This document shows, piece after piece, positions 6,070 to 35,631 of a stretch of 64,000 bases of DNA (within the stretch, counting starts at the first letter, position 1; each line of letters starts with the position of its first letter). The DNA is from Candidatus Bathyarchaeota archaeon (lineage in GTDB: Archaea; Thermoproteota; Bathyarchaeia; Bathyarchaeales; Bathycorpusculaceae). A program made the position numbers and the translations under genes. Below the pieces are notes generated by a model. The model was not told where the DNA came from. It did not search any database and was given only the letters and a program-made list of their open reading frames with translations. The stretch covers positions 290,137 to 354,136 of the forward strand of contig JAOZHS010000003.1 of the NCBI GenBank assembly GCA_026014745.1, read 5' to 3'.

Positions 6070-6082
6070 AAATTTAAATATG
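6070..6082 (+). promoter_or_regulatory. TATA-like promoter for the CPA2 antiporter
   Basis: AAATTTAAATATG ends about 37 bases before the ATG at 6119, a spacing consistent with an archaeal TATA box and a very short leader. Confidence 0.45.
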
Positions 6083-6118
6083 TTAAGCGATTATTGGGTT
6101 TTCTAATCGTGATAGCGC

Positions 6119-7312: not shown

Positions 7313-7379
7313 TTCTTCCAAACAAGTCTGAGGGGCCTACCCAGTCCCTTATAAAATTATAATCAGGATTGTCTGGGAA

Positions 7380-7709
7380 TCATTGGTTTTCTATTTTTTG
7401 TCGGATTAATTTTACGCCCTCTTCATACCGATGATTACAAACAGCGTCATCAGGACCTAAATTGTAAGCCTCACACATTTTTTTCAAAATCAAAGATTCA
7501 ATATAAGCGCTACCAGAACCAAGCAGGCTCCGTAGGGCAAGGACAAAAAGTTCAGGGTTCTTTGAGATATCCTCCGGCTTTAGAAGATATTTAGTTTGAA
7601 TATGGTAATAGAGGATTTTTTTAACAGATTCACCCATAAGCATAAGTGCCTGCTCTATCGCTTCACCGAGCACTTCATCAAAGTTACGCTTATTTTGAAT
7701 CGGATTCAT
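7380..7709 (-). CDS. Small NitrOD5-like output-domain protein
   Basis: A 109-residue, mostly helical protein. Features such as EAIEQALMLMGESVKKILYY, then PELFVLALRSLLGSGSAYIE and a final short helix, resemble the NitrOD5-type output domain, common as a stand-alone module in Thaumarchaeota and Bathyarchaeia. It lies 77 bases downstream of the TackOD1-like gene, on the same strand, at the end of the pilus operon. A signalling role at or near the pilus is inferred from position only. The family assignment rests on pattern memory and needs a profile search. Confidence 0.5.
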   Translation of the reverse strand: MNPIQNKRNFDEVLGEAIEQALMLMGESVKKILYYHIQTKYLLKPEDISKNPELFVLALRSLLGSGSAYIESLILKKMCEAYNLGPDDAVCNHRYEEGVKLIRQKIENQ

Positions 7710-7786
7710 TTTTGTATCCTATTTATTTTGATAATGGGAACCTTTTTGACTTGACGCGATGTTCTGTTCCACACATACATACACCG

Positions 7787-9687: not shown

Positions 9688-9688
9688 C

Positions 9689-10573: not shown

Positions 10574-12174
10574 TAGGCATCAAACCTCACGTGATTGAAG
10601 ATCTCCCGCGGATTCACGTAGTATTTCCTAATTAAATCGGCGACTTGGTCATAGGTGCTGAGATTGGTTTGGGCCATCCATTTCAGAATTAACTCTCGTT
10701 TTTCAAGGTCCTCTACTACTTGCTCAACTGGAATGTGTTTGGAGTCGGCTACCTTGTTTAATGCAAAACTCTGCTTAATGTCAGGGATAGCAAGGTTGAT
10801 AGCGTCATCTCGCGGGTCCCACCCGAAAAGCTTCCTAAAGCCACCGCTCTCGTCAATTTCGGATAATTCCGTTATACGCCTAACTACTTTATCATGGAAT
10901 TTAGTACGGTTCAACTGGGCAACGACATTCATCAGAGGAATCAACATTGGCGGTATATCCATCGGTTTGGTCAAGAGACGTTTCTCGACGGCTGCAACAT
11001 CTTCCGCGTGAATCGTGCACATGCCACCGTGACCCACAGAGATGCTCTGGAACAAGGTGAAGGCTTCTTCGCCGCGGATTTCGCCTACGATAATGTAATC
11101 GGGTCTTTGCCTAAGCGAAGACTTCAACAAATCAAAAAGCGTAACTTCTTTGATGCCCTCCTGCAAGGAGGGTCGCGTCACCATCGGAATCCAGTTTTCA
11201 TGTAACCGCAATTCTCGAACCTCCTCGATGGTAACGACTTTCATTTCGGGAGGGATGAAGGTGCAAATTGAGTTCAAAAGCCCCGTTTTACCCGCCGCAG
11301 TAGCACCTGAAGCGATTATGGACCGCTTATTTTCAACCAAAATCCACAGGTACGCAGCCACTAACGGCGTTAAAGTCCCCAGATTAATGAGGTCAATGAT
11401 GGTGAAGGGGTTAGCTCGCACTTTACGAATGGTGAAGGTACTGCCTCGCTTTGAAACCTCTTCTAGCGTGACGTGAATTCGGAAACCTTCAGGTAGAGCG
11501 CCTTCTAGGATGGGGTTTGATATGGAAATTTGATGCCCGGAACGGTACGCCAACCGCGTAATGAAGGTGTTGAGTTCTGCGCTTTCGCTAAACGTTACGT
11601 TAGTCGGCAAGGACTCGTATAGGCGGTGCCAAACATAAATCGGAATCCCAACGCCGTTACAGCTAATGTCTTCGATGTTTTGGTCCTTAATTAAAACATC
11701 AACAGGTCCATAACCAAGAAAATCTCTGGTGATAAAGTAAGCAAATTTGTCCATGGATTTTGCGGTGACATCCAGTCTGAAACGTTTAACCATCTTTTTG
11801 ATGTCCGCTGTTAAGAACGATTCCAGAGCATGCTCATCTTTGAGCTTATCTAACGAGAGGCTGGCTTCTTCCCGAATAGCATTTTTTAGTTTTCCCAGAG
11901 TAACCTGCTCAGTAGGCGTCATTGTTGGCTCTATAACTCGGTAGAGTAACCTACCAGATGCCTTATCGAGCTGAATACCAACGTTGCCAAATGGCGGCGA
12001 AACAGCATAGAAGTCTCTAAACTGAGAATCATGATCATCCTTAGACGCGGCGTCAGCATTTTTGTCAGTCTGCGGGGCAGCGGGTTTTTTCCTCTTGAAA
12101 AGGTCAAGGAAAATCAAAGGTTTTGTTTTCTCTTCAACAACTGCAGCGTTCTGTTTGCGTTTTTCAAGGGTCAT
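10573..12174 (-). CDS. Type II/IV secretion-family assembly ATPase (FlaI/GspE-like)
   Basis: A 533-residue cytosolic hexameric ATPase that powers pilin extraction and assembly. An N-terminal variable part is followed by the nucleotide-binding core: Walker A GATAAGKT around residue 295, the Asp box, Walker B-like IIVGEIRGEEAF and the His box (SVGHGGMCTIHAED). The start ATG follows directly after the TAA of the large pilin gene. The length and N-domain are as in archaeal pilus ATPases. Position between pilins and platform proteins is canonical. Confidence 0.92.
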   Translation of the reverse strand: MTLEKRKQNAAVVEEKTKPLIFLDLFKRKKPAAPQTDKNADAASKDDHDSQFRDFYAVSPPFGNVGIQLDKASGRLLYRVIEPTMTPTEQVTLGKLKNAIREEASLSLDKLKDEHALESFLTADIKKMVKRFRLDVTAKSMDKFAYFITRDFLGYGPVDVLIKDQNIEDISCNGVGIPIYVWHRLYESLPTNVTFSESAELNTFITRLAYRSGHQISISNPILEGALPEGFRIHVTLEEVSKRGSTFTIRKVRANPFTIIDLINLGTLTPLVAAYLWILVENKRSIIASGATAAGKTGLLNSICTFIPPEMKVVTIEEVRELRLHENWIPMVTRPSLQEGIKEVTLFDLLKSSLRQRPDYIIVGEIRGEEAFTLFQSISVGHGGMCTIHAEDVAAVEKRLLTKPMDIPPMLIPLMNVVAQLNRTKFHDKVVRRITELSEIDESGGFRKLFGWDPRDDAINLAIPDIKQSFALNKVADSKHIPVEQVVEDLEKRELILKWMAQTNLSTYDQVADLIRKYYVNPREIFNHVRFDA

Positions 12175-14724: not shown

Positions 14725-15157
14725 TTGCTTTTCCTCCCCTTGCTGAAACCGCAAGTATCTCTAAGCATGAATTAGATTGAACTGTAAAGGGCGAAGTAAA
14801 CTGAACAGTTAGAAGTTTTCCTGTTCCTATCGTTGTGTCCTTCCCGCTTTGATATTGCTGCACGGCAGTTCCGTTAAGGTAGAGTGCAGCTATGCGGAGG
14901 TCGGTTTGCCCATAATTAAATACAGTAATATTGAATCGGTTTTGAGAATCGGACCATACGCGAAGAATTTCAAATCTCTCTTGCGCTTGCTCACTATAAT
15001 ATGCTGTTTTATGAGTGAAGTCATCGCTTGATGCAGATATGGCGTTTAAGCTATATGCGTAAACTCCTACACCAGCGATTGTGATAATTAGGATAATAAC
15101 AAGGCTACCTACGATTTCTGCAACCCCTTTTTTGCAACGTATTAGCCTTTTTAACAG
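14705..15157 (-). CDS. Archaeal prepilin with apparent CTG start
   Basis: The frame gives 150 residues starting LLKRLIRCKKGVAEIVGSL, with a basic n-region, KKG cleavage site and long hydrophobic helix, ending at TAG 14705. It is bounded upstream by an in-frame TGA only two codons before CTG 15157, and no ATG, GTG or TTG is available. GGAG lies 11 nt upstream. The C-terminal domain has a beta-rich pattern (RFNITVFNYGQTDLRIAALY) seen in archaeal pilins. The stop lies inside the start region of the next pilin-like gene (20-nt overlap). An alternative is a one-base indel in an A-run. Confidence 0.65.
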   Translation of the reverse strand: MLKRLIRCKKGVAEIVGSLVIILIITIAGVGVYAYSLNAISASSDDFTHKTAYYSEQAQERFEILRVWSDSQNRFNITVFNYGQTDLRIAALYLNGTAVQQYQSGKDTTIGTGKLLTVQFTSPFTVQSNSCLEILAVSARGGKATVLYET

Positions 15158-15202
15158 TGTTTTTCACACTCCGTTAATAAAAAAAGAAAAAAGTTCGGTT
15201 GT

Positions 15203-15640
15203 TTATCGGGCCTCAACTGAGGTGCTCACGGTTGTGCCGTCAACACAAACAACCTTAACATCATAGAACCGACTTGCTTCGAGGGTTTGTTTATCTAACT
15301 GAAGATATGCTGTTTGTTGAACATCTAGTGGTGTCGATGAAGTTGTGAAAGCGGTAGCATTTTCTACGGCGGTACCTGCAATGTAGATTTTATCAAGGAC
15401 AAGATCTGATCCGCCAGCGTTCCGAACATAGAGTTTTATCTGTTTGTCTTCTACGCTTGCAGTTATAGAATCAATTTGAATTATGCCAGTATTTGTGGAA
15501 CTCTGTTGTGCGCCTCCGATCCAGCCCATAACATAAGCGTAAACCACTACGCCTGCTGCTACTGCCAGAAGCATTAGAATCAACGCTGCTATGACTGCTG
15601 AAAAGCCTGTTTTGCTCTTACATAGTTTTTTTAGGTTCAC
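15203..15640 (-). CDS. Archaeal prepilin (major pilin candidate)
   Basis: A 145-residue protein with GTG start 15640 behind a CAGGAG site. The N-terminus NLKKLCKSKTGFSAVIAALI carries a class III signal with cleavage likely after KTG, then the hydrophobic helix up to VVVYAYVMGW. The remainder is a small beta-rich domain with KQIKLYVRNAGGSDLVLDKI. It is the first gene of the pilus operon, so it is probably the most highly expressed pilin. Confidence 0.8.
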   Translation of the reverse strand: MNLKKLCKSKTGFSAVIAALILMLLAVAAGVVVYAYVMGWIGGAQQSSTNTGIIQIDSITASVEDKQIKLYVRNAGGSDLVLDKIYIAGTAVENATAFTTSSTPLDVQQTAYLQLDKQTLEASRFYDVKVVCVDGTTVSTSVEAR

Positions 15641-15808
15641 TTTTTTTTCTCCTGAGTTGATATGCTTCCTATTGTTGTACTTGTATACTTTAACTCTTAT
15701 GAATCAATAATCAATATTTTAAACTCGAGCCCAAACCACTAGGACGCAAACTAAAAGTTCGAATATCTTAAATATCAACAGCAACATAACGTAGAATGGT
15801 AGATTTTT

Positions 15809-16603
15809 ATGCAAAAATATAGTACTACTCTAATTTATGCAAACATAGTCGCATACATTTTTACTATTCTAATTAATAGCTTAGCGGGCAGCACCATGTT
15901 AATTGGCGGTCAAAACACCGCTGCAATATCAGACAATAATCCTACTCTTATAACGCCGGCGGGCTACGTGTTTTCTATTTGGGGAATAATCTATGTTCTT
16001 CTGGGAGCATTTGTAATCTACCAAGCACTGCCAAGAGAACGCAAAAGCGCATATCACCAAAAAATCGGCTGGCTCTTTTTACTTAGCAGTTTATTTAATA
16101 TCGCTTGGATTTTTGTTTGGCAATACGAAAGCCTAATCCTGTCAGTTATCCTCATCTTTGCCTTATTGTTCTCGTTAATTGCGATTTATATGCGTCTAAA
16201 CATCGGGCGCTCAAAAGTCAGGACAAGCGAACGCCTTGCAGTTCATTTGCCTTTTAGCGTTTATTTGGGTTGGATTACGATTGCTTCGATAGCTGATGTT
16301 GCGGTGACTTTGACTGCATATAACTGGGATGGCTTTGGAATTAGCCCTGAAATTTGGGCAACAATCGTTGTCGCAGTTGCGTTAGTTATAACTCTGCTTA
16401 TGCTTGGAATTCGTAAAGACGTGGCTTACGCGTTGGTGGTCATCTGGGCTTTAGTCGGCATCGGGATGAACAATAGCGGCAATCAAACGGTTATGCTGTT
16501 AACACAGATAGGCAGCATCATCGTGGGCGTCGCGATAATTGTGGTAGTCATCATAACTTTGCTAAGAAGAAAAAAGAAGAGTCCTGCAACAGAGATAGAC
16601 TGA
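15809..16603 (+). CDS. TspO/MBR-related membrane protein
   Basis: A 264-residue protein with about seven membrane segments. The segment TPAGYVFSIWGIIYVLLGAF matches the longer TspO-related family (tryptophan-rich sensory protein-like). TspO proteins bind tetrapyrroles or sterols and act in stress or transport; the ligand here is unknown. The C-terminus is a short basic tail (RRKKKSPATEID). It diverges from the pilus operon across a 168-bp region that probably holds both promoters. Confidence 0.8.
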   Translation: MQKYSTTLIYANIVAYIFTILINSLAGSTMLIGGQNTAAISDNNPTLITPAGYVFSIWGIIYVLLGAFVIYQALPRERKSAYHQKIGWLFLLSSLFNIAWIFVWQYESLILSVILIFALLFSLIAIYMRLNIGRSKVRTSERLAVHLPFSVYLGWITIASIADVAVTLTAYNWDGFGISPEIWATIVVAVALVITLLMLGIRKDVAYALVVIWALVGIGMNNSGNQTVMLLTQIGSIIVGVAIIVVVIITLLRRKKKSPATEID

Positions 16604-16644
16604 TAGCGCAATCTTGATTTCTACAAAAGAAAAACAAAACAGTA

Positions 16645-16887
16645 GTTCAAAGTTTTGTTTTGTCTCTTTGTGTGGGCGCTGCGGTTTACAGGATGCCACA
16701 AGATAGTTGTAGGCGGCGTTTGTTCTTTGGGTTTGCAGCCTGTTTCTACGCCTGTTTGGATGTGGCATAACCGAATCTCACCACACGCCCAACATGCAGC
16801 TATGTTGAAATCGCCGCGATGTGCATGTGGAAGCATGTATGGATTGGTTTTTTCTCCACAAGAACCAACACCACAACCCGCATACAA
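16645..16887 (-). repeat. Dispersed ~240 bp element, copy B (contains an intact small Cys-rich frame)
   Basis: Nearly collinear with the reverse complement of 5757-5997. On the minus strand an uninterrupted frame of 88 residues (16621-16887, TTG start, no RBS) contains SCGEK, a CWACGE knuckle and LCHIQTGVETGC. Conserved segments between copies in this frame include KQTPPTTILW. Copy A has stops in the same frame. The intergenic stretch 16604-16930 holds nothing else. Whether the element is protein-coding or an RNA/mobile relic is unresolved. Confidence 0.6.
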
Positions 16888-16912
16888 ACAAAAATAAAAA
16901 AAGAGGGGGAAG
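16888..16912 (-). terminator. T-rich terminator of the beta-propeller gene
   Basis: Downstream of the stop at 16931 the minus strand reads CCCCCTCTTTTTTTATTTTTGTTTG. Such T-tracts terminate archaeal RNA polymerase without a stem. Confidence 0.4.
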
Positions 16913-16930
16913 TTATTGAGGTACGTTTTT

Positions 16931-19615
16931 TTATGGTCGCTTCCTGATGGCCATCAACAATACAACGCCGACGATGGCGACAGCGATGATTATAGCAATT
17001 CCGACGCCAAGGATGTAGGTCTCTGTCTGGGGTAAAGTAATTGCTTGTTGCGGAGTTGCAGTTGGAGCCGCTTCATCCACGGAAAGATAGGTTGTTGCTG
17101 AAGATGGGTAATACGAGTGTGTGCCATCAAATCGAGCGAAGATAGTGTATAAGCCGGGAACTTCAGGGTGGAATGCGAAGCCGTAGTTTCCGTTTCCGTC
17201 GCTGGTAGTGTTGCCGATTTTGTAGTAGTTGCCGTTGGGGTCGAGAGTTTCAAAGACCATGTCGACGCCTTTGAGGTCAAGGGGTTTGCCTTGGTCCATG
17301 AAGAGGTATTCCATCCATGCTTGCATGTCAGCGTCGCAAATAGCGGGGGTACCTTTGAGCGGGGTTTCTAAGCCACCGTTTATGTCACGACTGCCAGAAC
17401 GTGAGTCATCTGTAACTGTACCCGTTATCAGTACGGTGCTGCCAAATGTTGAAACCTCAGGTGATGCTGCGACTGTAGTTGCACTTGCGCCTTTACCATA
17501 GCAGTAGATGCGGTTGTCGTAGAGGTTGAGGGTTACGATGTTGCCGTCTGCAACCACTGCGCCGCTTCCTGCGCCCATGCCTGCACCCCAGTTGTTGATC
17601 TTCCAAAGTTCAACACCGTTTGATGCATTGACACAGCGCAAGTACGAGCCACGCCACAGGGGTTGAGTGGGAGAGTGTTCGCTAGAGGTCAAGTATAGTT
17701 TGCCGTCTGCAACGCAGGCGATGCCGATGGGGTAATTACCATATGGAGATTCATCGCCGTATTGAGCAGCAGTGTAGTTCCAGAGAAGTTCACCGGTTTT
17801 AATATCGTAGGCATTCATTATGCCGCCGTAACCAAGCGATAGCAGTTTACCTTGGTATATGTTGTAGGATAATCCGTAGAAGTTCATTTGCGATTCAGGC
17901 GTACTTGTCTTCCACAATTGCTGCATCGTGTCGAGGCTGTAGCACCACCAGTTCCTTGAAAGAGATTCACTGTAGAGGAAAACGCCATCTTCAGGGTCAA
18001 CAACAGGTCCACTCATAGCGCCACTTGTGAATGTACCAAATGCTGATAGGCTGTTGTAAGTTGTCTCTGGAGGCGTGAATTTGCGGTTCCAAAGGGTAGC
18101 ACCCATTGGGCCCTTTGAGGGGTCAAGATTCAACGCCCAGAGGTTGCCTTGAACGATTGTTTCGTTGGGGGAGTTCTTTCCGGCTGTGCCGCCGATAATC
18201 ATGTTGCCTTCGCGAACTGCATAGATGGTACCTGAAATGTCACTGCCTATGGATACGTTTAATGAGTAGCCGTTGTTGCCGTCGAAGGTTTTGTTAAGTG
18301 TAGGTCGCCACATCCAATAGTCGTTACTGGCGAAGTATGGCTTGTACCAGATGGCTTGGCTGGTGTTCCAAACTTGCAGGTAATTTTTGGGGTTGGTGGT
18401 GTTTCCGTAGTTTTGTATGTGGTATGCGGTTATGCTTCCGTCTTTGCCATAGACTTGGTCGTAGCTGACAAAGAAGCCTCCGCCGCCTGTTGCCCAGCTG
18501 GGTATGTTGTTAATGCTACAGATGTAGTTGCTTGAGTATGCATCAAACATCATCCAAGACGCATTGGGGTTGGGTGTGCCAAAGAAGTCTGCGTAGGGTT
18601 TGCTCCATAGATAGGGGAAGCCGCCGTGTTGGTTAGGTGACTCGTAATCGTAGATTTGTCCAAAAGAGAGCGCTTCGCCTGCGATGCTGCCTGATGAGGA
18701 GAAACCGCCGCCTGTTCCAACGACTGGGCCCGTGGTGTTGTGGAAGTAGAGGGTTTCGCCAGTGTATAAGTCAAGGCAGTACCAGCCTTCTCGGGGCAGT
18801 GATTGAACGTTGTAGAACACTTTGCCGTCAAGAATTATTGGGGGCGTAAAGGATAGACCTTCGTAGTGCGCAGTTTGATATCCTGTTTCGCCGAATCGTT
18901 CGTCCATGATGCCGCCAGACCACATGGGTGTTGCCCATAAAATGTGGGCGCTTTCAGGTCCTAGTCCGTAACCGAAGTTTTGTGTTGGACCATTTACTTG
19001 GGCTGCTCCAGCTAACCAGTTGCCAGCTAGCACATACTGGTTTCTGCTCATAGCGTTTATGGGGCGTGTCCAATAGCTGTCAGGTAGTGGTGCTTCAGGC
19101 CACATGGGGATTGGAGCTTCTTGCACTGTTAGGGTTATGGGGTCGCTTTGGCTGGCGAGGTAGGTGTCGTTCATATTGTTGTATCCAGAACTCATTGCAC
19201 CAAATCCTGGAGGTAAGCCGTTAGGTGAACCGTCAATTTTCTTTGAATCCATGCGAGCGACGATAGTGTAGTCTCCAACTTCAGTAGGTGAGAAAGTTGT
19301 CCATGAACCGCCGACTGGGTCGGAAAGGAAGGGCCCCAGTGTTGATTCGACTCCGGCAGGTGAGGTTATGTCAATCCAGAATGTCCATGCGTCGCCATAC
19401 TTGCCCTGCGCTGTAGGTGGCACTGCATTGCTCCAGAAGACTATGACTGTTGTTTGTCCAACGCCTATGACTTCGTTTGTGACTGCAACGTATGTCCAAG
19501 TTGGCACATTCCATGGAGGGGTGTGTGCCTCAGTGAGGGGTAATGCAATCATCGAAATTGTTATGGATAACATTAGGCTCAACGCGAATGTTAACATTAT
19601 TTTCTTTTTTTGCAT
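16931..19615 (-). CDS. Exported PQQ-type beta-propeller protein with C-terminal membrane anchor
   Basis: An 894-residue surface protein. A Sec signal (residues 5-30) is followed by an N-terminal Ig-like domain (about 35-170), a PQQ/BamB-like propeller (about 185-700) with recurring Trp-rich blades and LYCL/VNASNGVELWK-like strands, a second Ig-like domain (about 720-850) and a membrane helix with a basic tail (AIRKRP). Such proteins are common in Bathyarchaeia and Methanomassiliicoccales surfaces; a redox cofactor is not assured because propellers of this kind are often structural. It is divergent from the TrmB gene. Confidence 0.85.
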   Translation of the reverse strand: MQKKKIMLTFALSLMLSITISMIALPLTEAHTPPWNVPTWTYVAVTNEVIGVGQTTVIVFWSNAVPPTAQGKYGDAWTFWIDITSPAGVESTLGPFLSDPVGGSWTTFSPTEVGDYTIVARMDSKKIDGSPNGLPPGFGAMSSGYNNMNDTYLASQSDPITLTVQEAPIPMWPEAPLPDSYWTRPINAMSRNQYVLAGNWLAGAAQVNGPTQNFGYGLGPESAHILWATPMWSGGIMDERFGETGYQTAHYEGLSFTPPIILDGKVFYNVQSLPREGWYCLDLYTGETLYFHNTTGPVVGTGGGFSSSGSIAGEALSFGQIYDYESPNQHGGFPYLWSKPYADFFGTPNPNASWMMFDAYSSNYICSINNIPSWATGGGGFFVSYDQVYGKDGSITAYHIQNYGNTTNPKNYLQVWNTSQAIWYKPYFASNDYWMWRPTLNKTFDGNNGYSLNVSIGSDISGTIYAVREGNMIIGGTAGKNSPNETIVQGNLWALNLDPSKGPMGATLWNRKFTPPETTYNSLSAFGTFTSGAMSGPVVDPEDGVFLYSESLSRNWWCYSLDTMQQLWKTSTPESQMNFYGLSYNIYQGKLLSLGYGGIMNAYDIKTGELLWNYTAAQYGDESPYGNYPIGIACVADGKLYLTSSEHSPTQPLWRGSYLRCVNASNGVELWKINNWGAGMGAGSGAVVADGNIVTLNLYDNRIYCYGKGASATTVAASPEVSTFGSTVLITGTVTDDSRSGSRDINGGLETPLKGTPAICDADMQAWMEYLFMDQGKPLDLKGVDMVFETLDPNGNYYKIGNTTSDGNGNYGFAFHPEVPGLYTIFARFDGTHSYYPSSATTYLSVDEAAPTATPQQAITLPQTETYILGVGIAIIIAVAIVGVVLLMAIRKRP

Positions 19616-26286: not shown

Positions 26287-26943
26287 TTAACACTTTTTCT
26301 CTTCGGTTTTAGCGAAATCTTCCTTGAATTTCTTAATTCCAATGTCAGTCAACGGATGATTCCACATCTTAGCTAAGACATCGGCAGGTATCGTTGCAAT
26401 ATGAGCACCAGTTTTTGCTGCTTCCAAAACATGAACCGGATGCCTAATGCTGGCAACAATTACTTTGGTCTTAAAGCCATAGTTCTTGTAAATTTGCATT
26501 ATATCCCGAATTAGGTCCATTCCATCTTCGGATATGTCATCTAGTCTCCCGATAAAAGGCGAAACGTAGCTTGCACCAGCCTTCGCTGCAATTAGCGCTT
26601 GATTTGCACTAAAAACCAACGTTACGTTTGTTTTAACTCCCTTTCCTTCGAGGATTTTTGCAGCTTTAATTCCTTCCTGAGTAAACGCAATCTTTACTAC
26701 GACATTTTTTGCCCATTTCGAATATGCTTCTCCCTCACGAACAATCTCATCGCAAGTATCAGCATTTCCTTCAACTGAAATAGGACCAGTTATTACTTTT
26801 GCAATCTCAGCAATTATCGCTTGTTGACTTTTTCCACCCTCTTTTGCAATAAGAGTTGGATTTGTTGTAACTCCATCGACAACGCCAAGTGCTGCGGCTT
26901 TTTTAATCTGTTCAACATTTGCAGTATCTAAAAAGAATTCCAT
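26287..26943 (-). CDS. tal: Transaldolase / fructose-6-phosphate aldolase-like (small TalC/MipB type)
   Basis: A 218-residue TIM-barrel enzyme of the small transaldolase subfamily. FFLDTANVEQIKKAAALG and DGVTTNPTLIAKEGG open the protein, the Schiff-base lysine sits in VVVKIAFT (the K of VKI), and SPFIGRLDD follows. It moves dihydroxyacetone units between sugar phosphates in the non-oxidative pentose phosphate pathway. ATG 26943 is preferred because GAGGTAG is 6-7 nt upstream. It is last in a tkt-tal cluster, directly after the transketolase C-half. Transaldolase versus F6P aldolase activity is not decidable here. Confidence 0.93.
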   Translation of the reverse strand: MEFFLDTANVEQIKKAAALGVVDGVTTNPTLIAKEGGKSQQAIIAEIAKVITGPISVEGNADTCDEIVREGEAYSKWAKNVVVKIAFTQEGIKAAKILEGKGVKTNVTLVFSANQALIAAKAGASYVSPFIGRLDDISEDGMDLIRDIMQIYKNYGFKTKVIVASIRHPVHVLEAAKTGAHIATIPADVLAKMWNHPLTDIGIKKFKEDFAKTEEKKC

Positions 26944-26977
26944 CTTTTCTACCTCAAATAAACTAAAGTTATAATGA

Positions 26978-28009
26978 TCAACTACTCTCCTCATTCATCA
27001 CGCGCAATTCTTTTTTGTAGTTCTCACGAACGAATTCGGCAATTCCTTCGGAGTCAAGACCAAATTTTTTCATAAGTTCAAGTGGTTCTCCTGATTCGCA
27101 AAATATATCTTTTATCCCAAGGCGCCTTAACGTGCAAGGGGTCGACTTTCCCGATTCACTTAAAACTTCTGCAATAGCGCCTCCGAGCCCACCTGTTATT
27201 TGATGATCCTCCACACTAACTATAAAGCCAGTTTGTTTTGCCCAAAAATTAATCATGTCCTTATCAATTGGCTTAATTGTATGACAATCAATCACTGCGC
27301 ACGAGATTCCTTCGGATTCAAGTTTCTCCGCGGCAATTATGGATTCATACACTTGGGGTCCACATGCAAAAATTGCAACATCTTTGCCATCGCGATAAAG
27401 GTTTGCCTTCCCAATGGTAAAAGGAGTTAAATGTGTGGTAAATACGGGCATTTTCTCTCGGCAAGATCGGATGTATACGGGACTTTTTATTTTACTTGCC
27501 TCAATGGTTGCTTTCCTTGCCTCTTCATAATCGGCTGGAACAATAACTATCATGTTTGGAAGAACACGAGTAATTGCAATGTCTTCTAAGGCTTGGTGAG
27601 ACGCTCCGTCGGGTCCAACTGTGACGCCAGTATGGGAACCGTGCAATTTTACGGGCACATTATTGTAGCAGATTGAAACACGAACCTGATCCCAATTTCT
27701 TCCAGGCGAGAAAACGGCATAAGCGGAGATAAAAACTGTTTTTCCTAATGAAGCGATTCCTGCAGCAACACCGGCCATATTCTGTTCAGAAACGCCAACT
27801 TGAACAAATCGATCAGGATATTTTTCAGCAAACCAATGAGTACGGGTACTTTCAGAAACATCAGCAGTTAATACCCATAGGTTAGGATTTTCAGCACCTA
27901 CTTCTACTAATGCTTTACCAAATCCGTCGCGACTTGGTTTTTTATTCTGGGGAGCGTCAATATTCTCAATTAGCCCCATTTGACTATTAATTTTTGATGA
28001 ATTTACCAT
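26978..28009 (-). CDS. Transketolase C-terminal subunit
   Basis: About 343 residues carrying the pyrimidine-binding and C-terminal domains of transketolase. Key segments are SRDGFGKALVEVG, VSEQNMAGVAAGIA (with the cofactor-activating Glu) and HGSHTGVTVGPDGASHQALEDI. Archaea often split transketolase in two genes; the N half is upstream. ATG 28009 is chosen on conservation; ATGs at 28027 and 28063 are alternatives, the latter overlapping the upstream gene's end. It works with the upstream fusion to form the full enzyme. Confidence 0.9.
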   Translation of the reverse strand: MVNSSKINSQMGLIENIDAPQNKKPSRDGFGKALVEVGAENPNLWVLTADVSESTRTHWFAEKYPDRFVQVGVSEQNMAGVAAGIASLGKTVFISAYAVFSPGRNWDQVRVSICYNNVPVKLHGSHTGVTVGPDGASHQALEDIAITRVLPNMIVIVPADYEEARKATIEASKIKSPVYIRSCREKMPVFTTHLTPFTIGKANLYRDGKDVAIFACGPQVYESIIAAEKLESEGISCAVIDCHTIKPIDKDMINFWAKQTGFIVSVEDHQITGGLGGAIAEVLSESGKSTPCTLRRLGIKDIFCESGEPLELMKKFGLDSEGIAEFVRENYKKELRVMNEESS

Positions 28010-28046
28010 TTTAACACCATGAAACATTTCTGAATTATTTTTTGGT

Positions 28047-29651
28047 CTACTCGCTCTCTCCATTGCGATAGAACTTTCTCTCCTCTTCAAGATCTTCTAA
28101 GGCGGTTAATGCTTCTTTGTCACCCGGTGATTTCCCATGCCATTCCGTGATAAATTCCATGAATGAGATGTCTTTTCCAGGAACGGTATGTGCGATGATC
28201 ATGGTTGGTTTATCGATTACCGTTTTGGCTTCATTACATGCTGAAATTATTTGTTGAATATTATGGCCATCTATGTTGATTAAGTGCCATCCGAAGGCTC
28301 TATATTTTTCTTCAAGGGGTTCTAGTGGAAGAACGTTTTCAGTAAATCCATCGATTTGAATATTGTTTCGGTCCATTATTACAGTTAAATTTCCAAGTTT
28401 AAATTTAGCGGCTAAGAGCGCAGCTTCCCAGATTTGTCCCTCGTTATGCTCACCATCTGAACAAACGCAGTAAACACGCCATTTCTTTTTTTCTCGCTTT
28501 GCAACTAACGCCATCCCGACTGCAATTGATAGCCCTTGTCCAAGAGGACCGGAACTATTCTCGATTCCAGGCAGGGTATCTTTATGGGGGTGTCCTTGTA
28601 ATCTTGAACCTAATTTTCTGAGAGTCATTAACTCTTCTTTGGGGAAATATCCTGCCTCAGCTAAGGTAGCATACAATCCGGGGCAAACGTGTCCATTTGA
28701 CAAAATAAAGCGATCCCGACCGTCCCAATTCGGATTTTTCGGATCATGATCTAAAACATTAAAGTAAAGCGCAGTAAACACGTCAGCTAGACCCATTGAA
28801 CCTGCAGGGTGACCTGATTTAGCTGCATGAAGCATCTTAACAATATTTTTTCGGATATTATTTGATAATAAATAGAGTTCGGTTATATCAGTAACTTTTA
28901 CGGTTCCAATCGTTGGTAGATCAAGAAGTGTTTGTTTTGGAGGTTCAGTAATTAGTTTGGGAACAGCAACACAGGCGACTGGTTCCTCTAAACGACAAGC
29001 TTGTAATTTATTGTAACCTCGAATCCCTGAATCGTAGATGCTCTTGACGGCTTCAGGAATATTTTCTGCAGCAAAAATTGAACTTGAAGCTGCAAGGATG
29101 TTTGCTCCTGCTTCACTAGCCCTCTCGGAAGTGGCAGGATTTATTCCGCCATCAACTTCAATTTTGAGGTCGGGGAATTTTTCTCGAAGCGTACGGATTT
29201 TTGATTCGACGTCAGCAATGTACTTTTGACCGCTAAAACCAGGGTTGACGGTCATAACTAAGACTTGCTTGACCTCATTATCATGAATATAGGGATATAG
29301 TTTTTCGATGGGTGTCGGCGGATTAATAGCAAGACCTATTTTTGCACCCAAAGCGTGTGCCTTTTTTATTTCGTTCCAATCAGCAATGGTCTCGACATGA
29401 ACTAAATGAGTGTGTTCGCCAGGAATTTTCGAAATCCATTTTTCAGGATTCTTTACCATCCAGTGGAATTCGTATGACATTCCTGAGGGAAGGTCTGTTA
29501 GGCTTTCAAGTCCGATTGTGCCATTAGGGACGAATTCATTGTCCATAATATCTATGTGCACGGTTGTTACACTGGGTTTAACTTTCTCGATGTGTGCTAT
29601 CAGTTCTTCTCGGTTTTTCACCAAGATTGCGGGTATAACTTCTACGTCCAT
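28047..29651 (-). CDS. Ribulose-phosphate 3-epimerase fused to transketolase N-terminal subunit
   Basis: A 534-residue fusion. Residues 1 to about 215 are a complete Rpe barrel: VIPAILVKN, TVHIDIMDNEFVPNGTIG, MTVNPGFSGQKY and EVDGGINPAT are catalytic and phosphate-binding blocks. A linker of about 35 residues leads to the transketolase N-domain (about 255-534) with AKSGHPAGSMGLADVFTALY and the thiamine-diphosphate motif CSDGEHNEGQIWEA...DRNN. The epimerase makes xylulose-5-phosphate, a transketolase substrate. The start is ATG 29651; TTG 29660 is possible. No stop or frameshift separates the domains. Confidence 0.93.
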   Translation of the reverse strand: MDVEVIPAILVKNREELIAHIEKVKPSVTTVHIDIMDNEFVPNGTIGLESLTDLPSGMSYEFHWMVKNPEKWISKIPGEHTHLVHVETIADWNEIKKAHALGAKIGLAINPPTPIEKLYPYIHDNEVKQVLVMTVNPGFSGQKYIADVESKIRTLREKFPDLKIEVDGGINPATSERASEAGANILAASSSIFAAENIPEAVKSIYDSGIRGYNKLQACRLEEPVACVAVPKLITEPPKQTLLDLPTIGTVKVTDITELYLLSNNIRKNIVKMLHAAKSGHPAGSMGLADVFTALYFNVLDHDPKNPNWDGRDRFILSNGHVCPGLYATLAEAGYFPKEELMTLRKLGSRLQGHPHKDTLPGIENSSGPLGQGLSIAVGMALVAKREKKKWRVYCVCSDGEHNEGQIWEAALLAAKFKLGNLTVIMDRNNIQIDGFTENVLPLEPLEEKYRAFGWHLINIDGHNIQQIISACNEAKTVIDKPTMIIAHTVPGKDISFMEFITEWHGKSPGDKEALTALEDLEEERKFYRNGESE

Positions 29652-29884
29652 CTGAATCAACTATTAAATCTCAGTTTTGTCGGATTTACTCGCTTTTTTA
29701 GCCTGCGTGTTACAACATGAACGCAACTAGCTTTTAAGCCTTGTTTGACTAGATTACCGCTTCACTGGGTTTTCCAGCTACTTTTCGTATTCGCTCTTTT
29801 GCGTTTAAAACAAAACGACATTGAGAGCGCACAAAACCTCGCCCTGATGTTAACGTCAAAGGAGAAACTTGCAGGCGCGAGTTT

Positions 29885-30016
29885 TTATAGCCAAGTTGAT
29901 TTTGATAGAACAACCTTACATTTTGGGCAAATCGATAAAACAGCTTCGCCACTAACGATTATTTCGGGTACGCCTTCGTTGTTGCATTTTGGACAACTGC
30001 AAATTCTTGAGCCCAA
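29885..30016 (-). CDS. Small zinc-ribbon protein in the PRPP/pentose cluster
   Basis: A 43-residue frame from TTG 30016. ICSCPKCNNEGVPEIIVSGE and ICPKCKVVLSK give two CPKC knuckles about 28 residues apart, the classic treble/zinc-ribbon geometry. The frame stays open 15 codons further upstream but has no other start. The ribosome site is weak (GGCGAG). It lies between prs and the rpe-tkt fusion on the same strand. The two intact knuckles argue for a real gene; function is unknown. Confidence 0.5.
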   Translation of the reverse strand: MGSRICSCPKCNNEGVPEIIVSGEAVLSICPKCKVVLSKSTWL

Positions 30017-30177
30017 TTTTTCTCGCCAATCGCTGTTTTTATTTCTAACTATGGTTAGATCTGAATTATCGCTTTTTCATCAAAGTCTTATTATATTTTT
30101 TCCATTTTACAGTAAAATAGGGTTTTCGCGGGTTTTCCTCACGGATGATGAGGGAGAAAGTGAAGTGTTGTTTTACT

Positions 30178-31032
30178 TCACGGTAAAAAGTCTTTTAGCC
30201 GCTTTTTTATACTCACTACTGCCGCAGGACTGGGCACGCTGTCGCTAACTACAATTTCTTTTGCACCTGCAGCTCGAATTCTGTCAAATGCACACCCAAC
30301 TAGTAGCCCATGAACTGAAGCGCAAACGATTTTTTTGGCACCTGCCTTTTTACATACTTGGGCGGCCTTAACCATTGTCTCTCCGCTAATGATCATGTCG
30401 TCAATTAAAATTACGTCTCGACCAGCGATGTCTGCATCAAGTTTTTCGGAAGTGATTTGCCTAAAAGCAATGGGTCCATGGATGTACTCTCCGAGAGTTT
30501 TTTCCATACTAACGCCGCCCAATTTTTCAACGAAGTGAGCGGCACCTTGATCGGGGGCAATAAAAACAGGATCAGATACACGCGGCTTAACATATTCAAA
30601 TAGATCGTTAACAATCGATCGGTTATCAATATCTAAACCTGCGACATTCTTTTTGCCGCTAGACTCCAAAAAGTGACAATTAAACGTAACGAGCTCATCA
30701 AGACCAGCACTCAACAGCAGTTTGATAGCCATCGTCGCCGAATCAGTCTCTCCAGGTCTAGATAGCTCATCCTGCCTCGAGTATGGAAGGTACGGGATGA
30801 TTGCAGTTACTTTTGCTGCAACTGGTTTCACAGCGCTTAAAATTTGGAAAAACTGCAGGAGACGTGAATCTTGGTCGGGATAGCACCTGTGCAGAATTGT
30901 GACATGTTTTTCTTTTAGATTTTCAATTTGGGGAATGTAAATGTAATTCTCGCAATCATGAAATTTTTTTATCTCAACATTTGGTTCCGCGAGATCCGAA
31001 CAAGTCGGGCTGACGAGCAGAAATTTTTCCAT
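30178..31032 (-). CDS. prs: Ribose-phosphate pyrophosphokinase (PRPP synthetase)
   Basis: A 284-residue enzyme that transfers pyrophosphate from ATP to ribose-5-phosphate. The archaeal short form shows IIPYLPYSRQDELSRPGET, the NCHF metal loop (FNCHFLESSG), PDQGAAHFVEKLGG and the PRPP-binding DVILIDDMIISGETM. It heads a leftward block whose remaining enzymes interconvert pentose phosphates, so the cluster can make ribose-5-phosphate from glycolytic sugars and turn it into PRPP for nucleotides. Identity is secure. Confidence 0.95.
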   Translation of the reverse strand: MEKFLLVSPTCSDLAEPNVEIKKFHDCENYIYIPQIENLKEKHVTILHRCYPDQDSRLLQFFQILSAVKPVAAKVTAIIPYLPYSRQDELSRPGETDSATMAIKLLLSAGLDELVTFNCHFLESSGKKNVAGLDIDNRSIVNDLFEYVKPRVSDPVFIAPDQGAAHFVEKLGGVSMEKTLGEYIHGPIAFRQITSEKLDADIAGRDVILIDDMIISGETMVKAAQVCKKAGAKKIVCASVHGLLVGCAFDRIRAAGAKEIVVSDSVPSPAAVVSIKKRLKDFLP

Positions 31033-31116
31033 ACCCCCTAAGTAGATAGATCAGTATAAAAAGGCTATCATGCTTGATTTGAAAAATCCAAAAAAGAACT
31101 TTTACGGTTAAAAGTG

Positions 31117-31132
31117 ATGCCACCGCCGAAAG
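31117..31132 (+). repeat. Putative left attachment-site remnant (att-like direct repeat)
   Basis: ATGCCACCGCCGAAAG matches 14 of 16 bases with the tRNA-Asn 3' end at 34390-34405 (ATGGCGCCGCCGAAAG), in the same orientation. Together they bracket the AAA+ pair and the recombinase relic, as expected for an element integrated at a tRNA 3' end. The two mismatches may be post-integration decay. Confidence 0.45.
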
Positions 31133-31295
31133 TATGTATTCCAGAGGCGCAGTTATACCGTAAAAAATCTCTCAGCATTACTGCATTATTGTTTGTTTGC
31201 CTTATGGTCGCTTTATTGACAGATGTGCAGGCGGTTGAACCCCAAGATATTCCCCGCGATTTCCCTTTTTTTAAACCACTATCAGGGTCATTGTT

Positions 31296-31457
31296 ATGGT
31301 GGGGGCGAAGGAGTGGGATGAGGATTCTATCAGTAACCAATTTTCACTTTTCGGGGATAAATTGGATAGTAAAAGGTCTTGGATAAATCTGGAAGAAGAC
31401 GAAATTAAAGATGTTGAAAAAGGCAAAAGCGCGCTAAGGCAACATTTGAAAACTTAG
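31296..31457 (+). CDS. Possible small acidic protein at the island edge
   Basis: ATG-started frame of 53 residues (MVGAKEWDEDSISNQF, later LEEDEIKDVEKGKSALRQ) with protein-like charge patterning. There is only a weak GGG upstream. It lies between the left att-like repeat and the first AAA+ gene, on the same strand. A second frame (31111-31386) with one membrane helix overlaps it. Otherwise the stretch 31033-31590 shows nothing clear. Low confidence. Confidence 0.3.
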   Translation: MVGAKEWDEDSISNQFSLFGDKLDSKRSWINLEEDEIKDVEKGKSALRQHLKT

Positions 31458-31590
31458 GGCTTTTTTTTGATTCCCTAAAATTACATTTTAGGAAAATAGA
31501 ACATATTTTGAGACTAAAATAGAGCAAATTCTTTAAAAAAATCACAAACCTTTTAAATAAAAAGCATAAAACATCAGTAATAATCGGGAG

Positions 31591-32484
31591 TTGAATCAAT
31601 CGTCCATTAAGTTAGAAGAATGGTGCACCCTTTATCCACCAGGACATATTCCGCAAGGCCAACTATTTGGTTATGAAAACCAAATGAAAGCATTGAAAAC
31701 CATCTCGATCAATCAGGGCATCTGCCATAAGGTACTGTTTTTTGGGGTGCCTGGAAACGGTAAAACCAACTTTTCAGCCGCGCTTGCCAATTCCTTAAGT
31801 GAAGAGGGAAAAATGCACTATGCTTTAGAGATGATTTCCTCCGATAAAATTCCAGCTGAGCTTCGTGATTCAGATCTACTCATTAGAAGTCTCGAAAGAG
31901 CAGTAGGGGAAGCACTTAAACAGCAACCCGTCATCATTTGCTTTGACGAAATTGATTTTATGACACCAAAGTTAAATACGCCCGGACTCACCCCTCACAT
32001 GGCCTCATTGTGTGCTTGGGTAAGACGTTTTCTGAACAATGACAACGTCAAATCCTCAAAAGCACTAATTGTAGGAGTAACAAATAACCCATCGATGATT
32101 GAATTATCGGTAATAAATCGTTTTAAAACGGGAATCTATTTTGAGCCAACGCCCCCCGCCATCATAGAATTAATAATTAAAAATAATTTGACGACTAACA
32201 AAGAAGTTAGTGACAAATTTTTGAGAAAAGTAAATGGATTGGGTTTCTGGCCGATGGGAAGAGATGTCATGAACTCTTGCATGTCAACAAAAGAGTGCTA
32301 CGACGGCGACATCACCAAAATTCCAACAGAAATGGTAGCCAGTACGATGGTCGCTACTATTGGGATGCCCCTTCCTAAAAGAGCAATAGACGAGTTCGAG
32401 CACGATGAAGCCAACCTGATTGAACAAAGCAAAAGATACACTATTCCATATTGGATTGATTTCTATGAAAAAATTAAAGCCTAA
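31591..32484 (+). CDS. AAA+ ATPase with intact motifs (first of a pair)
   Basis: A 297-residue single-module ATPase. Walker A GVPGNGKT is at about residues 52-59, Walker B VIICFDEIDF at about 111-120, sensor 1 in GVTNNPSM, and an arginine-finger-like VINRF at about 175. A small helical lid follows, and the C-terminus ends in YTIPYWIDFYEK. The start is TTG 31591, directly after CGGGAG, so the true start is uncertain. It has a paralog 170 bases downstream with degenerate motifs. No partner protease or nuclease is fused. Remodelling or replication-initiation roles are possible but unproved. Confidence 0.8.
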   Translation: MNQSSIKLEEWCTLYPPGHIPQGQLFGYENQMKALKTISINQGICHKVLFFGVPGNGKTNFSAALANSLSEEGKMHYALEMISSDKIPAELRDSDLLIRSLERAVGEALKQQPVIICFDEIDFMTPKLNTPGLTPHMASLCAWVRRFLNNDNVKSSKALIVGVTNNPSMIELSVINRFKTGIYFEPTPPAIIELIIKNNLTTNKEVSDKFLRKVNGLGFWPMGRDVMNSCMSTKECYDGDITKIPTEMVASTMVATIGMPLPKRAIDEFEHDEANLIEQSKRYTIPYWIDFYEKIKA

Positions 32485-32654
32485 AAAAATGAAATACATA
32501 TTCCATATCAACGGTGTTTATATGCAAGTATGCTTACTCTTCACTCAAGCAAGCAAAAACTTAAAAAATCCGATACGACTATTAGGGTTGTTTTATTGGA
32601 TGAAAATTCCGGGGGCCCACTTTCACAACATAGAGCGATTTGGAGGGTTTGGAT

Positions 32655-33533
32655 TTGAGTAAAAAAGAAGCCATTACACTAATCGGTGATTATAAACAGT
32701 TTGATCAAATTCCAGATAAGCCTCTTTTTGGTTATTCAGAACAGATGCAGGTGGGTCTTGCACTAGGCACGGAAGTAGCACGCGGCAGTTTCAAATCGGT
32801 TTTCGTTTTTGGCTACCAAGGGATAGGCAAAAAAGCTTATCCAATCGCACTGGCAAACGAGTTAAACAAAAGGCTTAATCTGAGATTCTCTTATCTCGGG
32901 ATACATTGCGAGAAGTTTCTACTTGAAATCAGGACTGCAAATCAAGCAAAAGAAATACTTGAGAAAGCTCAGGAACTTATAGCACAAAACAAACCCATTA
33001 TTGTAGCCATTGACGAGATTCACTATTTATCTCGTGAAAATGTCAGGTTGAACCCAGTTTTTTCGACTTTGCATATTTGGCTGACACTTTTACTAAAGCG
33101 GTCACTACCGAAAGTCATGGTTATGGGCATAACGGAGCGTCCCAGTTTGGTTGATAAAAGCGTGGTTGAAGGATTTTCTGTCCCACTTTACTTTGATATT
33201 ACTTCACGTAAAATGATTTCCCAAATTATAAAGAGCTATTTAAAGAACAAAAAAGGTCAAGTTGTCGCAACTGAATTATTAGGTCAACTTGATGACCTTA
33301 GCATTATGCCTGTAAGCGCTGACGTGATAAGAGCTCTTTCAGCCCTGAAAGGCGAAACATTTGAAAACCTCTCGGAAGACGACACTGTAAAAGCAATTCG
33401 AAGCTATTTAGAGCAATATGTTTCAAAAGACGCTGTTGAAGAATACACCAAAGCTAACCATGAACTGATTCATCTTTCCCGCAATTATACAATACCTTAC
33501 TACGCCAAACTCAAAGAAAATATAGCAAACTAG
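32655..33533 (+). CDS. Degenerate AAA+ ATPase paralog (second of a pair)
   Basis: About 292 residues from TTG 32655, 8 nt after GGAGGG. It is collinear with the upstream AAA+ protein, from KPLFGYSEQMQ (compare GQLFGYENQMK) to the shared tail YTIPYYAKLK. Walker A reads GYQGIGKKA, with the usual Thr/Ser replaced by Lys. Walker B IVAIDEIHYL is kept. Sensor 1 is TERPS instead of TNNPS, and the arginine-finger position is VVEGF instead of VINRF. It probably binds but does not hydrolyse nucleotide efficiently and may form a mixed ring with the first protein. Confidence 0.75.
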   Translation: MSKKEAITLIGDYKQFDQIPDKPLFGYSEQMQVGLALGTEVARGSFKSVFVFGYQGIGKKAYPIALANELNKRLNLRFSYLGIHCEKFLLEIRTANQAKEILEKAQELIAQNKPIIVAIDEIHYLSRENVRLNPVFSTLHIWLTLLLKRSLPKVMVMGITERPSLVDKSVVEGFSVPLYFDITSRKMISQIIKSYLKNKKGQVVATELLGQLDDLSIMPVSADVIRALSALKGETFENLSEDDTVKAIRSYLEQYVSKDAVEEYTKANHELIHLSRNYTIPYYAKLKENIAN

Positions 33534-34068
33534 GGTAAACAATTTTCTATAGCTGAATTTGAATGCTATTTCAGTGCCAGTTCTAATAATATCAATAGCA
33601 AATCTTTGTAAGTAGTTAAAGCCAGTTCGCATATCTTCTAAAGCCAACCTTTTTTGGACTTTGAAAGCTGCAATAATGCTGTTACCTTGTTTGACTATGT
33701 CACTTGCCATTGGTTCTCTGAATAAGTGTGGCCAAATTGTTTGGCTTGTGCTTGGCACGATTGTGAACACTGCGCGGTCGCTAAGATGCTTATTGGGGGA
33801 AAATCTGTAATAGCCAAAAACGCTTTTTCAAGAAGGAAGCCAGAACTTTGGCGTCGGATTTAATTCATACAGGTATTCAAGGAAGTTCAAAATATTTTGG
33901 GTCAGTGTGTCAGAGAGGGAGAAGGCTTTCAAAGCTTTTGAGGGCTCGGCGGTAAAAAAAATTGAAGTATTAGCGAGAGTTATGCCGCATTTTTTACAAA
34001 ACAGCGAGTTCTTTGAGTTTTTAGTTTCGCAACTGGGGCATTTCTTGTGTTTACGTTTTTTTCTCCAC
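33423..34068 (-). pseudogene. Decayed tyrosine recombinase (integrase) with N-terminal zinc ribbon
   Basis: One minus-strand frame reads KHKKCPSCETKNSKN, FCKKCGITLANTS, FLEYLYELNPTPKFWLPS, TGA (33828-33830), then KSVFGYYRFSPNKHL and TIWPHLFREPMASDI. HLFRE followed about 35 residues later by FNYLQRFA has the spacing of tyrosine-recombinase box II Arg and the nucleophilic Tyr. The catalytic middle is missing and a GTG at 34068 is out of frame by one base in a 7-A run. The 3' part runs antisense into the second AAA+ gene. It is a relic of the enzyme that inserted the island at tRNA-Asn. Confidence 0.55.
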
Positions 34069-34087
34069 GCTAAACGTTACGTTTAGC
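34069..34087. promoter_or_regulatory. Perfect 19-bp palindrome, candidate operator
   Basis: GCTAAACGT-T-ACGTTTAGC is a perfect 9+1+9 inverted repeat immediately upstream of the start region of the recombinase relic (GTG 34068). No T-run follows on either strand, so an operator is more likely than a terminator. Confidence 0.5.
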
Positions 34088-34195
34088 AAGCTTCCCCCTA
34101 TTTTAAAACGCTCTATTGTAATCCATAAAATCTCTGCTACGTTTGCCACAAAACCGCATAAGTGAGAGAACAGCTAGTGCGCTTAGCATGAAATA

Positions 34196-34300
34196 TTAAT
34201 CTTTAATGGAGTTGGCTTTTTCGAGGGCTAAACCAATTTCTTCTTCATCGATGACTGTTTCTCGGTTTGCCCCAAAGGCATTACCTCTAACACAAGTCAA
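34196..34300 (-). CDS. Possible 34-residue protein with strong ribosome binding site
   Basis: TTG 34300 is preceded by GGAGGT with a 6-nt spacer. The frame (CVRGNAFGANRETVIDEEEI... LEKANSIKD) is protein-like and the open frame extends 17 codons further upstream. It lies between the tRNA and the recombinase relic, inside the putative element. It could be a small element gene or the tail of a truncated one. Not recognised. Confidence 0.4.
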   Translation of the reverse strand: MTCVRGNAFGANRETVIDEEEIGLALEKANSIKD

Positions 34301-34389
34301 GATTATACCTCCGTCCACGCCAAAGGTATTACTAAATATTCTACGGAAATTAGGCTACGAAAAAAGGGCAGTAATGATTCGTAAAAATT

Positions 34390-34405
34390 ATGGCGCCGCC
34401 GAAAG
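34390..34405 (+). repeat. Putative right attachment site in tRNA-Asn 3' end
   Basis: ATGGCGCCGCCGAAAG covers the CCA end and acceptor 3' strand of tRNA-Asn and repeats, with two mismatches, at 31117-31132. Integration into tRNA 3' ends is the usual habit of archaeal tyrosine recombinases. Confidence 0.45.
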
Positions 34406-34467
34406 GACTCGAACCTTTGACCTACTGATTAACAGTCAGTTGCACTACCGGGCTGTGCAACGGCGGC
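34391..34467 (-). tRNA. tRNA-Asn (GTT)
   Basis: Minus-strand cloverleaf: acceptor GCCGCCG/CGGCGGC, D-arm GCACAGCCCGGTAGTGC, anticodon stem ACTGA/TCAGT with loop CTGTTAA (anticodon GTT), T-arm AAAGG-TTCGAGT-CCTTT, discriminator G, and encoded CCA. A TATA-like CTTAAATATG lies about 40 bases upstream. Its 3' end is part of the att-like direct repeat. Confidence 0.97.
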
Positions 34468-34558
34468 AAAGCATCACTGCTTCTGCCACACCAGATTTCA
34501 CATAACATATTTAAGCATACCGTCGACCCTGCGAAGAGTGTTAAGTAACAAACTTTGA

Positions 34559-34699
34559 TTGATAGAGGAGCAATTCAGAAAGTTCTTGCGCGTTTACCTC
34601 GGCAACATCGCTGCGAAGGGCAAAGTTATTAGGAAAAACGTTGCCAATAAAACGTTCATGCAACCCGATTGTGAGCCATCCCGGAGAGCGCTTTTATGA
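34559..34699 (+). CDS. Possible 46-residue protein coupled to the NDT/SLOG gene
   Basis: The frame TTG ATA GAG GAG ... encodes IEEQFRKFLRVYLGNIAAKG and a basic C-terminal part, and its TGA overlaps the ATG of the next gene (ATGA). This overlap is the only real support; no ribosome site precedes the TTG. It could be a small partner of the downstream protein or chance. Confidence 0.25.
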   Translation: MIEEQFRKFLRVYLGNIAAKGKVIRKNVANKTFMQPDCEPSRRALL

Positions 34700-35562
34700 A
34701 TATATTTATCATAATGCCTTTCGACAAGAAATTCGATGATGTATACGCTCAAATTAAGAATACAGTCCAAACAGCTATCACGCAAGAAGGAACGCGATGC
34801 TATCGCTTAGACGAGGTAAAGTCTGCGGGCAGAATAACAATTGACTTAGTTTCCGAGCTGAAGCAAGCAGCTCTTTGCATAGCCGATGTAACAGGAAATA
34901 ACCCAAATGTAATGTGGGAATTAGGATACGCGATGGCTCTCAATAAACCAACGATTGTTCTTTCCCAGTCATTTGAGAAAATGCCTTTTGACATAGCTGA
35001 CCTGAGGACTATCAAATATGACCCTCAGAATCTGTTGACCATTAAGGTTCGATTGCTTGAGGCAATTAATATGACGTTTAGTCGTTATGAAATGAGAGTT
35101 GGCTCCAGGATCATTAATGCCCTTGAAAAGGCACCTTATGGGATAGCGGTTACTGGTTCTAGTAAGGTTACACCTGCACTATGCGTGGACAAAATCCAAT
35201 CCACCCTATCAAATTACATAAAGACAAATACCGTTTGGTTTGTCGGGTCAAATGGTGCTTGCGATGAAGCAGCAGCTGAGTATTTAGGTAGCCTGAAGCA
35301 GAAGGTAACGATAATCAGCTATGACAAGTTTGACATTTCAGACAGAATGCTTAAAATCATAGAAAAATTCGATTTCAAATTTCTATCAGCCGAAGACCAA
35401 CCGATCCCTAAAAACATAAGTATGCCCTCAAAACGCGATTTCTTGTTTGCTCAGATGGCTGACCTGATGCTTATAGCTTGGGATGGTCAAAGCGCTAAGA
35501 CGCAGGAATTGATTAACTGGTGCAGGATTCAACACAAAGATCATTTTATTTGCTACGTGTAA
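34696..35562 (+). CDS. Nucleoside 2-deoxyribosyltransferase-like domain fused to SLOG-like domain
   Basis: A 288-residue cytosolic protein. Residues 1 to about 125: IFIIMPFDKKFDDVYAQI, a central Asp-containing LDEVK, ALCIADVTGNNPNVMWELGY and KPTIVLSQ form the NDT/TIR-like fold whose conserved Glu (in NVMWELG) is the glycosidase or transferase nucleophile. Residues about 145-288: GIAVTGSSKV, VWFVGSNGACDEAAAEYL and ADLMLIAWDGQSAKTQELI resemble SLOG/DprA-type nucleotide-ligand domains. Start ATG has GGAGAG upstream. Such combinations occur in defence and nucleotide-signalling proteins, where one domain senses or makes a nucleotide and the other hydrolyses one. Confidence 0.75.
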   Translation: MNIFIIMPFDKKFDDVYAQIKNTVQTAITQEGTRCYRLDEVKSAGRITIDLVSELKQAALCIADVTGNNPNVMWELGYAMALNKPTIVLSQSFEKMPFDIADLRTIKYDPQNLLTIKVRLLEAINMTFSRYEMRVGSRIINALEKAPYGIAVTGSSKVTPALCVDKIQSTLSNYIKTNTVWFVGSNGACDEAAAEYLGSLKQKVTIISYDKFDISDRMLKIIEKFDFKFLSAEDQPIPKNISMPSKRDFLFAQMADLMLIAWDGQSAKTQELINWCRIQHKDHFICYV

Positions 35563-35631
35563 ACTTGAATAAAGTTAATTCATCAGAACGGGGTAAACCA
35601 AAAAGAGGACCGTAAGGTTGCTGTCTGGCGG

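Follow-up and report, generated by a model that had tools for sequence, protein, structure and literature searches.

The 64,000-nt stretch of DNA analysed here (the window) carries, between the prs gene and a tRNA-Asn gene, a segment with two AAA+ ATPase genes and a decayed tyrosine recombinase gene (Table 1). The tRNA-Asn gene is the sole tRNA-Asn-like match in the source genome. No DNA homology to the segment was detected in the congener loci compared. The small unassigned frames mentioned in the sequence-only reading (31114-31386, 31296-31457, and 33423-33770) are all without Pfam support; the last belongs to the recombinase relic, and the first two were taken as chance frames.

Table 1. 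Features of the segment between prs and tRNA-Asn and of its boundaries (positions in the window).
Feature	Position	Strand	Evidence and remarks
Distal att-like repeat copy, degenerate	31109..31132	-	Unconstrained repeat search
Putative inserted segment between repeats	31133..34381		G+C about 0.39 vs. 0.45-0.48 in wider flanks
AAA1, AAA+ ATPase	31591..32484	+	Intact frame; Pfam AAA E=7.5e-12
AAA2, AAA+ ATPase	32640..33533	+	Intact frame; Pfam AAA E=2.9e-8
Decayed tyrosine recombinase	33585..34297	-	Two frames; one frameshift, two stops (TAA, TGA)
Proximal att-like repeat	34382..34405	-	Last 15 nt of tRNA + 9 nt of trailer
tRNA-Asn (GTT anticodon, GUU in RNA)	34391..34467	-	ARAGORN; putative target gene

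A 16-nt direct repeat had been reported between the tRNA-Asn 3' end and positions 31117-31132 (14/16 identical, same orientation). It was recovered as stated, and the unconstrained search extended it to 24 nt with 20 identical positions in the same orientation, including nine bases past the tRNA-Asn end. In the 2.7-Mb genome, the 16-mer has eight matches at ≤2 mismatches besides the tRNA, the reported copy included. The significance of the repeat was estimated by aligning locally to the complete tRNA with its trailer, the position being left free; the repeat of the window scores 16, a value reached in 0 of 2000 simulated 504-bp stretches and in 1 of 500 simulated 3.2-kb stretches. Among 1,656 real 504-bp chunks, scores of ≥15 were obtained only at sites of tRNAs or tRNA fragments and at the window's own repeat. 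A copy of the tRNA 3' end at the distal boundary exceeds what chance would give (p around 0.002 or less).

Archaeal integrases favour tRNA 3' ends as targets, and their att sites are usually 40-60 bp with exact identity, some being as short as the acceptor end or reaching past the tRNA (PMC8371274). The imperfect 24-nt repeat found here is shorter than the usual archaeal att site. The first ~15 bases past the window's tRNA resemble the trailer of the second tRNA-Asn locus of congener G015, which is apparently uninserted. The G015 genome has two tRNA-Asn loci, one of them beside gatA/gatB-like genes; the trailer of the tRNA-Asn on the gatA/gatB side has TTTACGAATC in common with the tRNA of the window, at an identical offset, and the other congeners lack it. 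This likeness is compatible with integration only on the premise that the trailer was part of the att core.

The recombinase relic is near full length and begins 94 bp from the tRNA-Asn 3' end. A frameshift and the TAA and TGA stops break its open reading frame, so that it is not a functional ORF; a zinc-ribbon insertion and the catalytic GKR, HLFR, and Y motifs are still present. The catalytic Arg, HxxR, and Tyr motifs can be made out in the relic as well as in five relatives. The identity with an intact 255-aa protein of congener G005 is 44% over 243 aa, in agreement with the earlier description of a recombinase relic with integrase-like motifs. This intact relative matches XerA-type models and also Phage_integrase (E=2.8e-5), with 24.4 bits, slightly below the cut-off of 27.1. 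The family is rare (7/257 genomes of the class) and short, comprising the catalytic domain only without the usual N-terminal DNA-binding domain.

In G005, the recombinase gene overlaps a Zot/packaging-type ATPase gene within a provirus, and on the 39.5-kb IMG/VR contig IMGVR_UViG_3300009788_000069 the gene order is the same, a packaging-type ATPase being followed by a member of the family; this ATPase is named from its P-loop and position and not from a profile search. Since its relatives sit beside packaging-type ATPases in a provirus and in a viral contig, the relic is most likely of viral origin. It has the catalytic motifs and the zinc ribbon in common with these two recombinases but is a pseudogene without a neighbouring packaging-type ATPase. 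The unclassified family of short zinc-ribbon tyrosine recombinases is now linked to viruses of these archaea. In the regions read, no tRNA was found near the relatives in G123, G124, G125, G022, and the viral contig; the G005 recombinase is located in a provirus that is itself near tRNA-Asn. Because the family is a short, catalytic-domain-only viral one found away from tRNA genes, integration of the element may have been the work of another enzyme than the decayed recombinase. In G124, two copies of the short recombinase (L145 and L146) have common flanking DNA of ~1.6 kb (81%), which hints at a compact mobile cassette.

The G005 provirus (G005:C128, L143, positions 5315-17361) encodes a zinc-ribbon integrase, a primase-like protein, and a packaging-type ATPase, and lies immediately past the radical SAM gene neighbouring tRNA-Asn, about 2 kb from this tRNA. 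Besides the relative of the relic, it has a 387-aa integrase adjoining the radical SAM gene. The segment in the window could accordingly be a fragment of a provirus first integrated elsewhere nearby by a different, canonical integrase, with the relic as an accessory viral enzyme. The closest intact relative of the relic does lie 9.7 kb from tRNA-Asn in just such a provirus, and the rarity of the family makes two matches at one locus an unlikely coincidence. Yet the G005 provirus is on the opposite side of the tRNA and has no other gene in common with the segment, and the tRNA repeat would be left unexplained; this origin is considered quite improbable.

The pair of AAA+ genes reported between the repeats was verified by Pfam AAA matches. 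Both proteins scored above the Pfam AAA cut-off and have Walker A and B motifs in the AAA domain, which places them among the AAA+ ATPases. According to the alignment, both Walker motifs of AAA1 are preserved, as are its sensor-1 Asn and its arginine finger; in AAA2 the Walker A Lys and the Walker B DE remain, but neither a sensor-1 Asn nor an arginine finger can be recognised. The two proteins are 29% identical, have a C-terminal YTIPY segment in common, and are each other's sole convincing relatives. No close AAA1 homologue was found in 60 near relatives, in 256 other genomes of the class, or in 397 other genomes of the phylum. Pattern scans of IMG/VR and genome_contigs (84,980 species genomes), which detect close relatives only, likewise gave no close AAA1 homologue. 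Searches with the pair in genomes, IMG/VR, phages, plasmids, and PDB returned generic AAA similarity only, and the AlphaFold models of the two proteins (pLDDT 54 and 44) were too poor for searching. Paired ATPases beside a recombinase in G022 were considered as a counterpart and rejected, as the one of the two that was compared is not homologous to AAA1 by BLASTP.

The AAA core with Walker A and B is common to the pair and to classic AAA ATPases (Cdc48, CdvC/Vps4, and the AAA+ protein of Acidianus tailed spindle virus), but the similarity is distant, with about 23-30% identity. Unlike the classic AAA proteins, AAA1 and AAA2 have no recognised N-terminal domain, end in the YTIPY segment, and form a tandem pair with one degenerate member. 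In line with the earlier remark that this AAA+ cargo matches no known archaeal element, the pair has no homologue in any element found. Integration at a tRNA end is a known kind of event; the AAA+ cargo is an orphan and a lead to unsampled mobile elements. It is conceivable, though on the whole unlikely, that AAA1 and AAA2 are the first members of a family of AAA+ ATPases working as hetero-oligomeric pairs of an active and a degenerate protein. Such a family would be carried by a lineage of archaeal viruses or plasmids not yet described, and the pair would have outlasted the decay of the element through its service to the host.

Another possible source of the pair is a host or defence module, e.g., an IetA-like ATPase system, that arrived at a variable locus independently of the recombinase relic. 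Weak IetA matches (E about 2e-6, over short stretches) point in this direction, as does a TIR effector-like gene (34696-35562) across the tRNA, absent from the tRNA-radical SAM spacer of the congeners. Against it, an IetAS system combines an IetA above the cut-off with a neighbouring IetS S8 peptidase, and here the NCBIfam IteA score was 20.9 vs. a cut-off of 510, the matches reflecting generic AAA similarity; the segment contains no S8 peptidase partner and no further gene. A host or defence origin is regarded as improbable.

On the left-hand side, G010, the nearest relative, has the prs cluster as well, at 88% protein identity. DNA homology with G010 on this side ends at 31086, 23 bp short of the extended distal repeat, and the repeat is absent from the corresponding boundary in G010. 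The prs cluster left of 31109 was rejected as cargo of the element because it is also present in G010, where the insert is absent. The cluster (26287-31032) is of the pentose-phosphate type, with transaldolase, transketolase halves, epimerase, and prs, all named by eye; among the 31 congeners, the 88% prs homologue is found in G010 only, and what the remaining genomes have is a paralogue with about 28-46% identity.

An empty site, with the prs side joined directly to tRNA-Asn, was sought in the 31 congeners, and the flanks were joined in none. About 100 kb of a single contig separates prs from tRNA-Asn in G010, where their orientations are such that one inversion would bring the two together; the genes neighbouring them in G010 lie apart on another contig in the source genome. 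The insert sits on a rearrangement junction relative to G010, so that an empty site for it is not demonstrable. Two observations named beforehand as speaking against an integrated element, namely both repeats without integration in related genomes and conserved synteny of the AAA+ pair far from any tRNA, were not seen.

The segment might thus be debris at a chromosomal rearrangement junction, where an inversion or translocation joined tRNA-Asn and the region upstream of prs and trapped viral or accessory genes, the repeat being incidental or a short substrate of the rearrangement rather than an att site. The arrangement in G010, at both sites and in their neighbours, is what would be expected from this, and the genes 3' of tRNA-Asn vary from congener to congener with few exceptions, being in many cases core genes (trpS, the POR operon, cca, and glycyl-tRNA synthetase). 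Nevertheless, rearrangement would account neither for a copy of the tRNA 3' end at the distal boundary nor for the relic of a viral recombinase next to the tRNA. Moreover, the two processes can coexist, as integrated elements promote inversions (PMC8371274). Rearrangement debris is rated as a rather unlikely explanation.

Comparison of the tRNA-Asn locus across the genus showed that the same radical SAM gene is kept upstream of the tRNA in most congeners, whereas downstream almost nothing is common. In G002 and G007, an integrase gene directly adjoins the 3' end of tRNA-Asn, and in G025 an integrase homologous to that of G002 occupies this position. In G014 (L093, G014:C21:23600-30233), the far end of an insert of ~0.77 kb at tRNA-Asn consists of 44 nt that repeat the 3' half of the tRNA in degenerate form; the insert encodes one 165-aa membrane protein and no intact integrase. 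The sister genome G004 is the empty site, with the genes past the G014 insert (2'-5' RNA ligase-like and cca-like, named by eye) directly following the tRNA. The proposed comparison of related tRNA-Asn loci thus yielded an occupied and empty pair for another insert at the same tRNA and none for the insert of the window. An exact 17-nt repeat of the tRNA-Asn 3' end was found 7.0 kb downstream in G024 (L099, G024:C102), and an orphan tRNA-Asn 3' half is present in G003. Given the integrases at the tRNA in three species, the G014/G004 pair, the G024 repeat, and the G003 orphan half, the tRNA-Asn 3' flank is a real integration hotspot in the genus. Integration at this tRNA 3' end has recurred within the genus, and the inserts have decayed to different extents. 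The G014 relic resembles that of the window in the tRNA used, in the degenerate tRNA 3' repeat at the far end of the insert, and in having no intact integrase; it differs in its size, its single membrane protein, its 44-nt repeat, and its empty sister site. Two very large proteins that look secreted are encoded between the 17-nt repeats of G024, where no integrase is evident.

The interpretation of the segment as the relic of an element integrated at a tRNA 3' end was upheld in part: the repeat, the relic, the orphan cargo, the low G+C content, and the hotspot argue for it, and the missing empty site, the rearrangement junction, and the recombinase family not linked to tRNA genes elsewhere limit it. 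The 31.1-34.4 kb region is probably what is left of an element of viral origin that inserted at the 3' end of tRNA-Asn and has since lost most of its length. This reading accounts jointly for the repeat and the relic, and for the base composition and the orphan cargo as well. Here we infer the integration event, the integrating enzyme, and the role of the AAA+ pair. A virus-derived element would have entered the 3' end of the sole tRNA-Asn gene by site-specific recombination, restoring the tRNA on one side and leaving an incomplete copy of its 3' end and trailer on the other. Most of the element would later have been deleted, the recombinase gene would have gained its frameshift and two stops, and the distal repeat would have drifted to 20/24. 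With the recombinase broken and the distal repeat drifted, the element would no longer be able to excise. The two AAA+ genes would have persisted as open frames. Their products may form one mixed ring, in which AAA1 hydrolyses ATP and AAA2 is a degenerate partner, and the pair may originally have served the element's own DNA replication or maintenance.

The putative remnant has in common with the tRNA-integrated archaeal proviruses and plasmids of the SSV, pNOB8, pT26-2, and SNJ2 types (PMC8371274) the tRNA 3'-end target, the restored tRNA, the direct repeat at the far end, and a tyrosine recombinase gene near the tRNA. Unlike these types, it has a short and imperfect repeat, a broken recombinase of a short zinc-ribbon family, and otherwise no gene that can be recognised as belonging to an element.

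Across the tRNA, the spacer from its promoter to the radical SAM gene contains a 1.1-kb insertion (34520-35631) that the congeners lack. It carries the TIR-effector-like gene mentioned above (PADLOC TIR E=2.3e-14), the unassigned C-terminal half of which resembles, by eye, a SLOG-type Rossmann domain.
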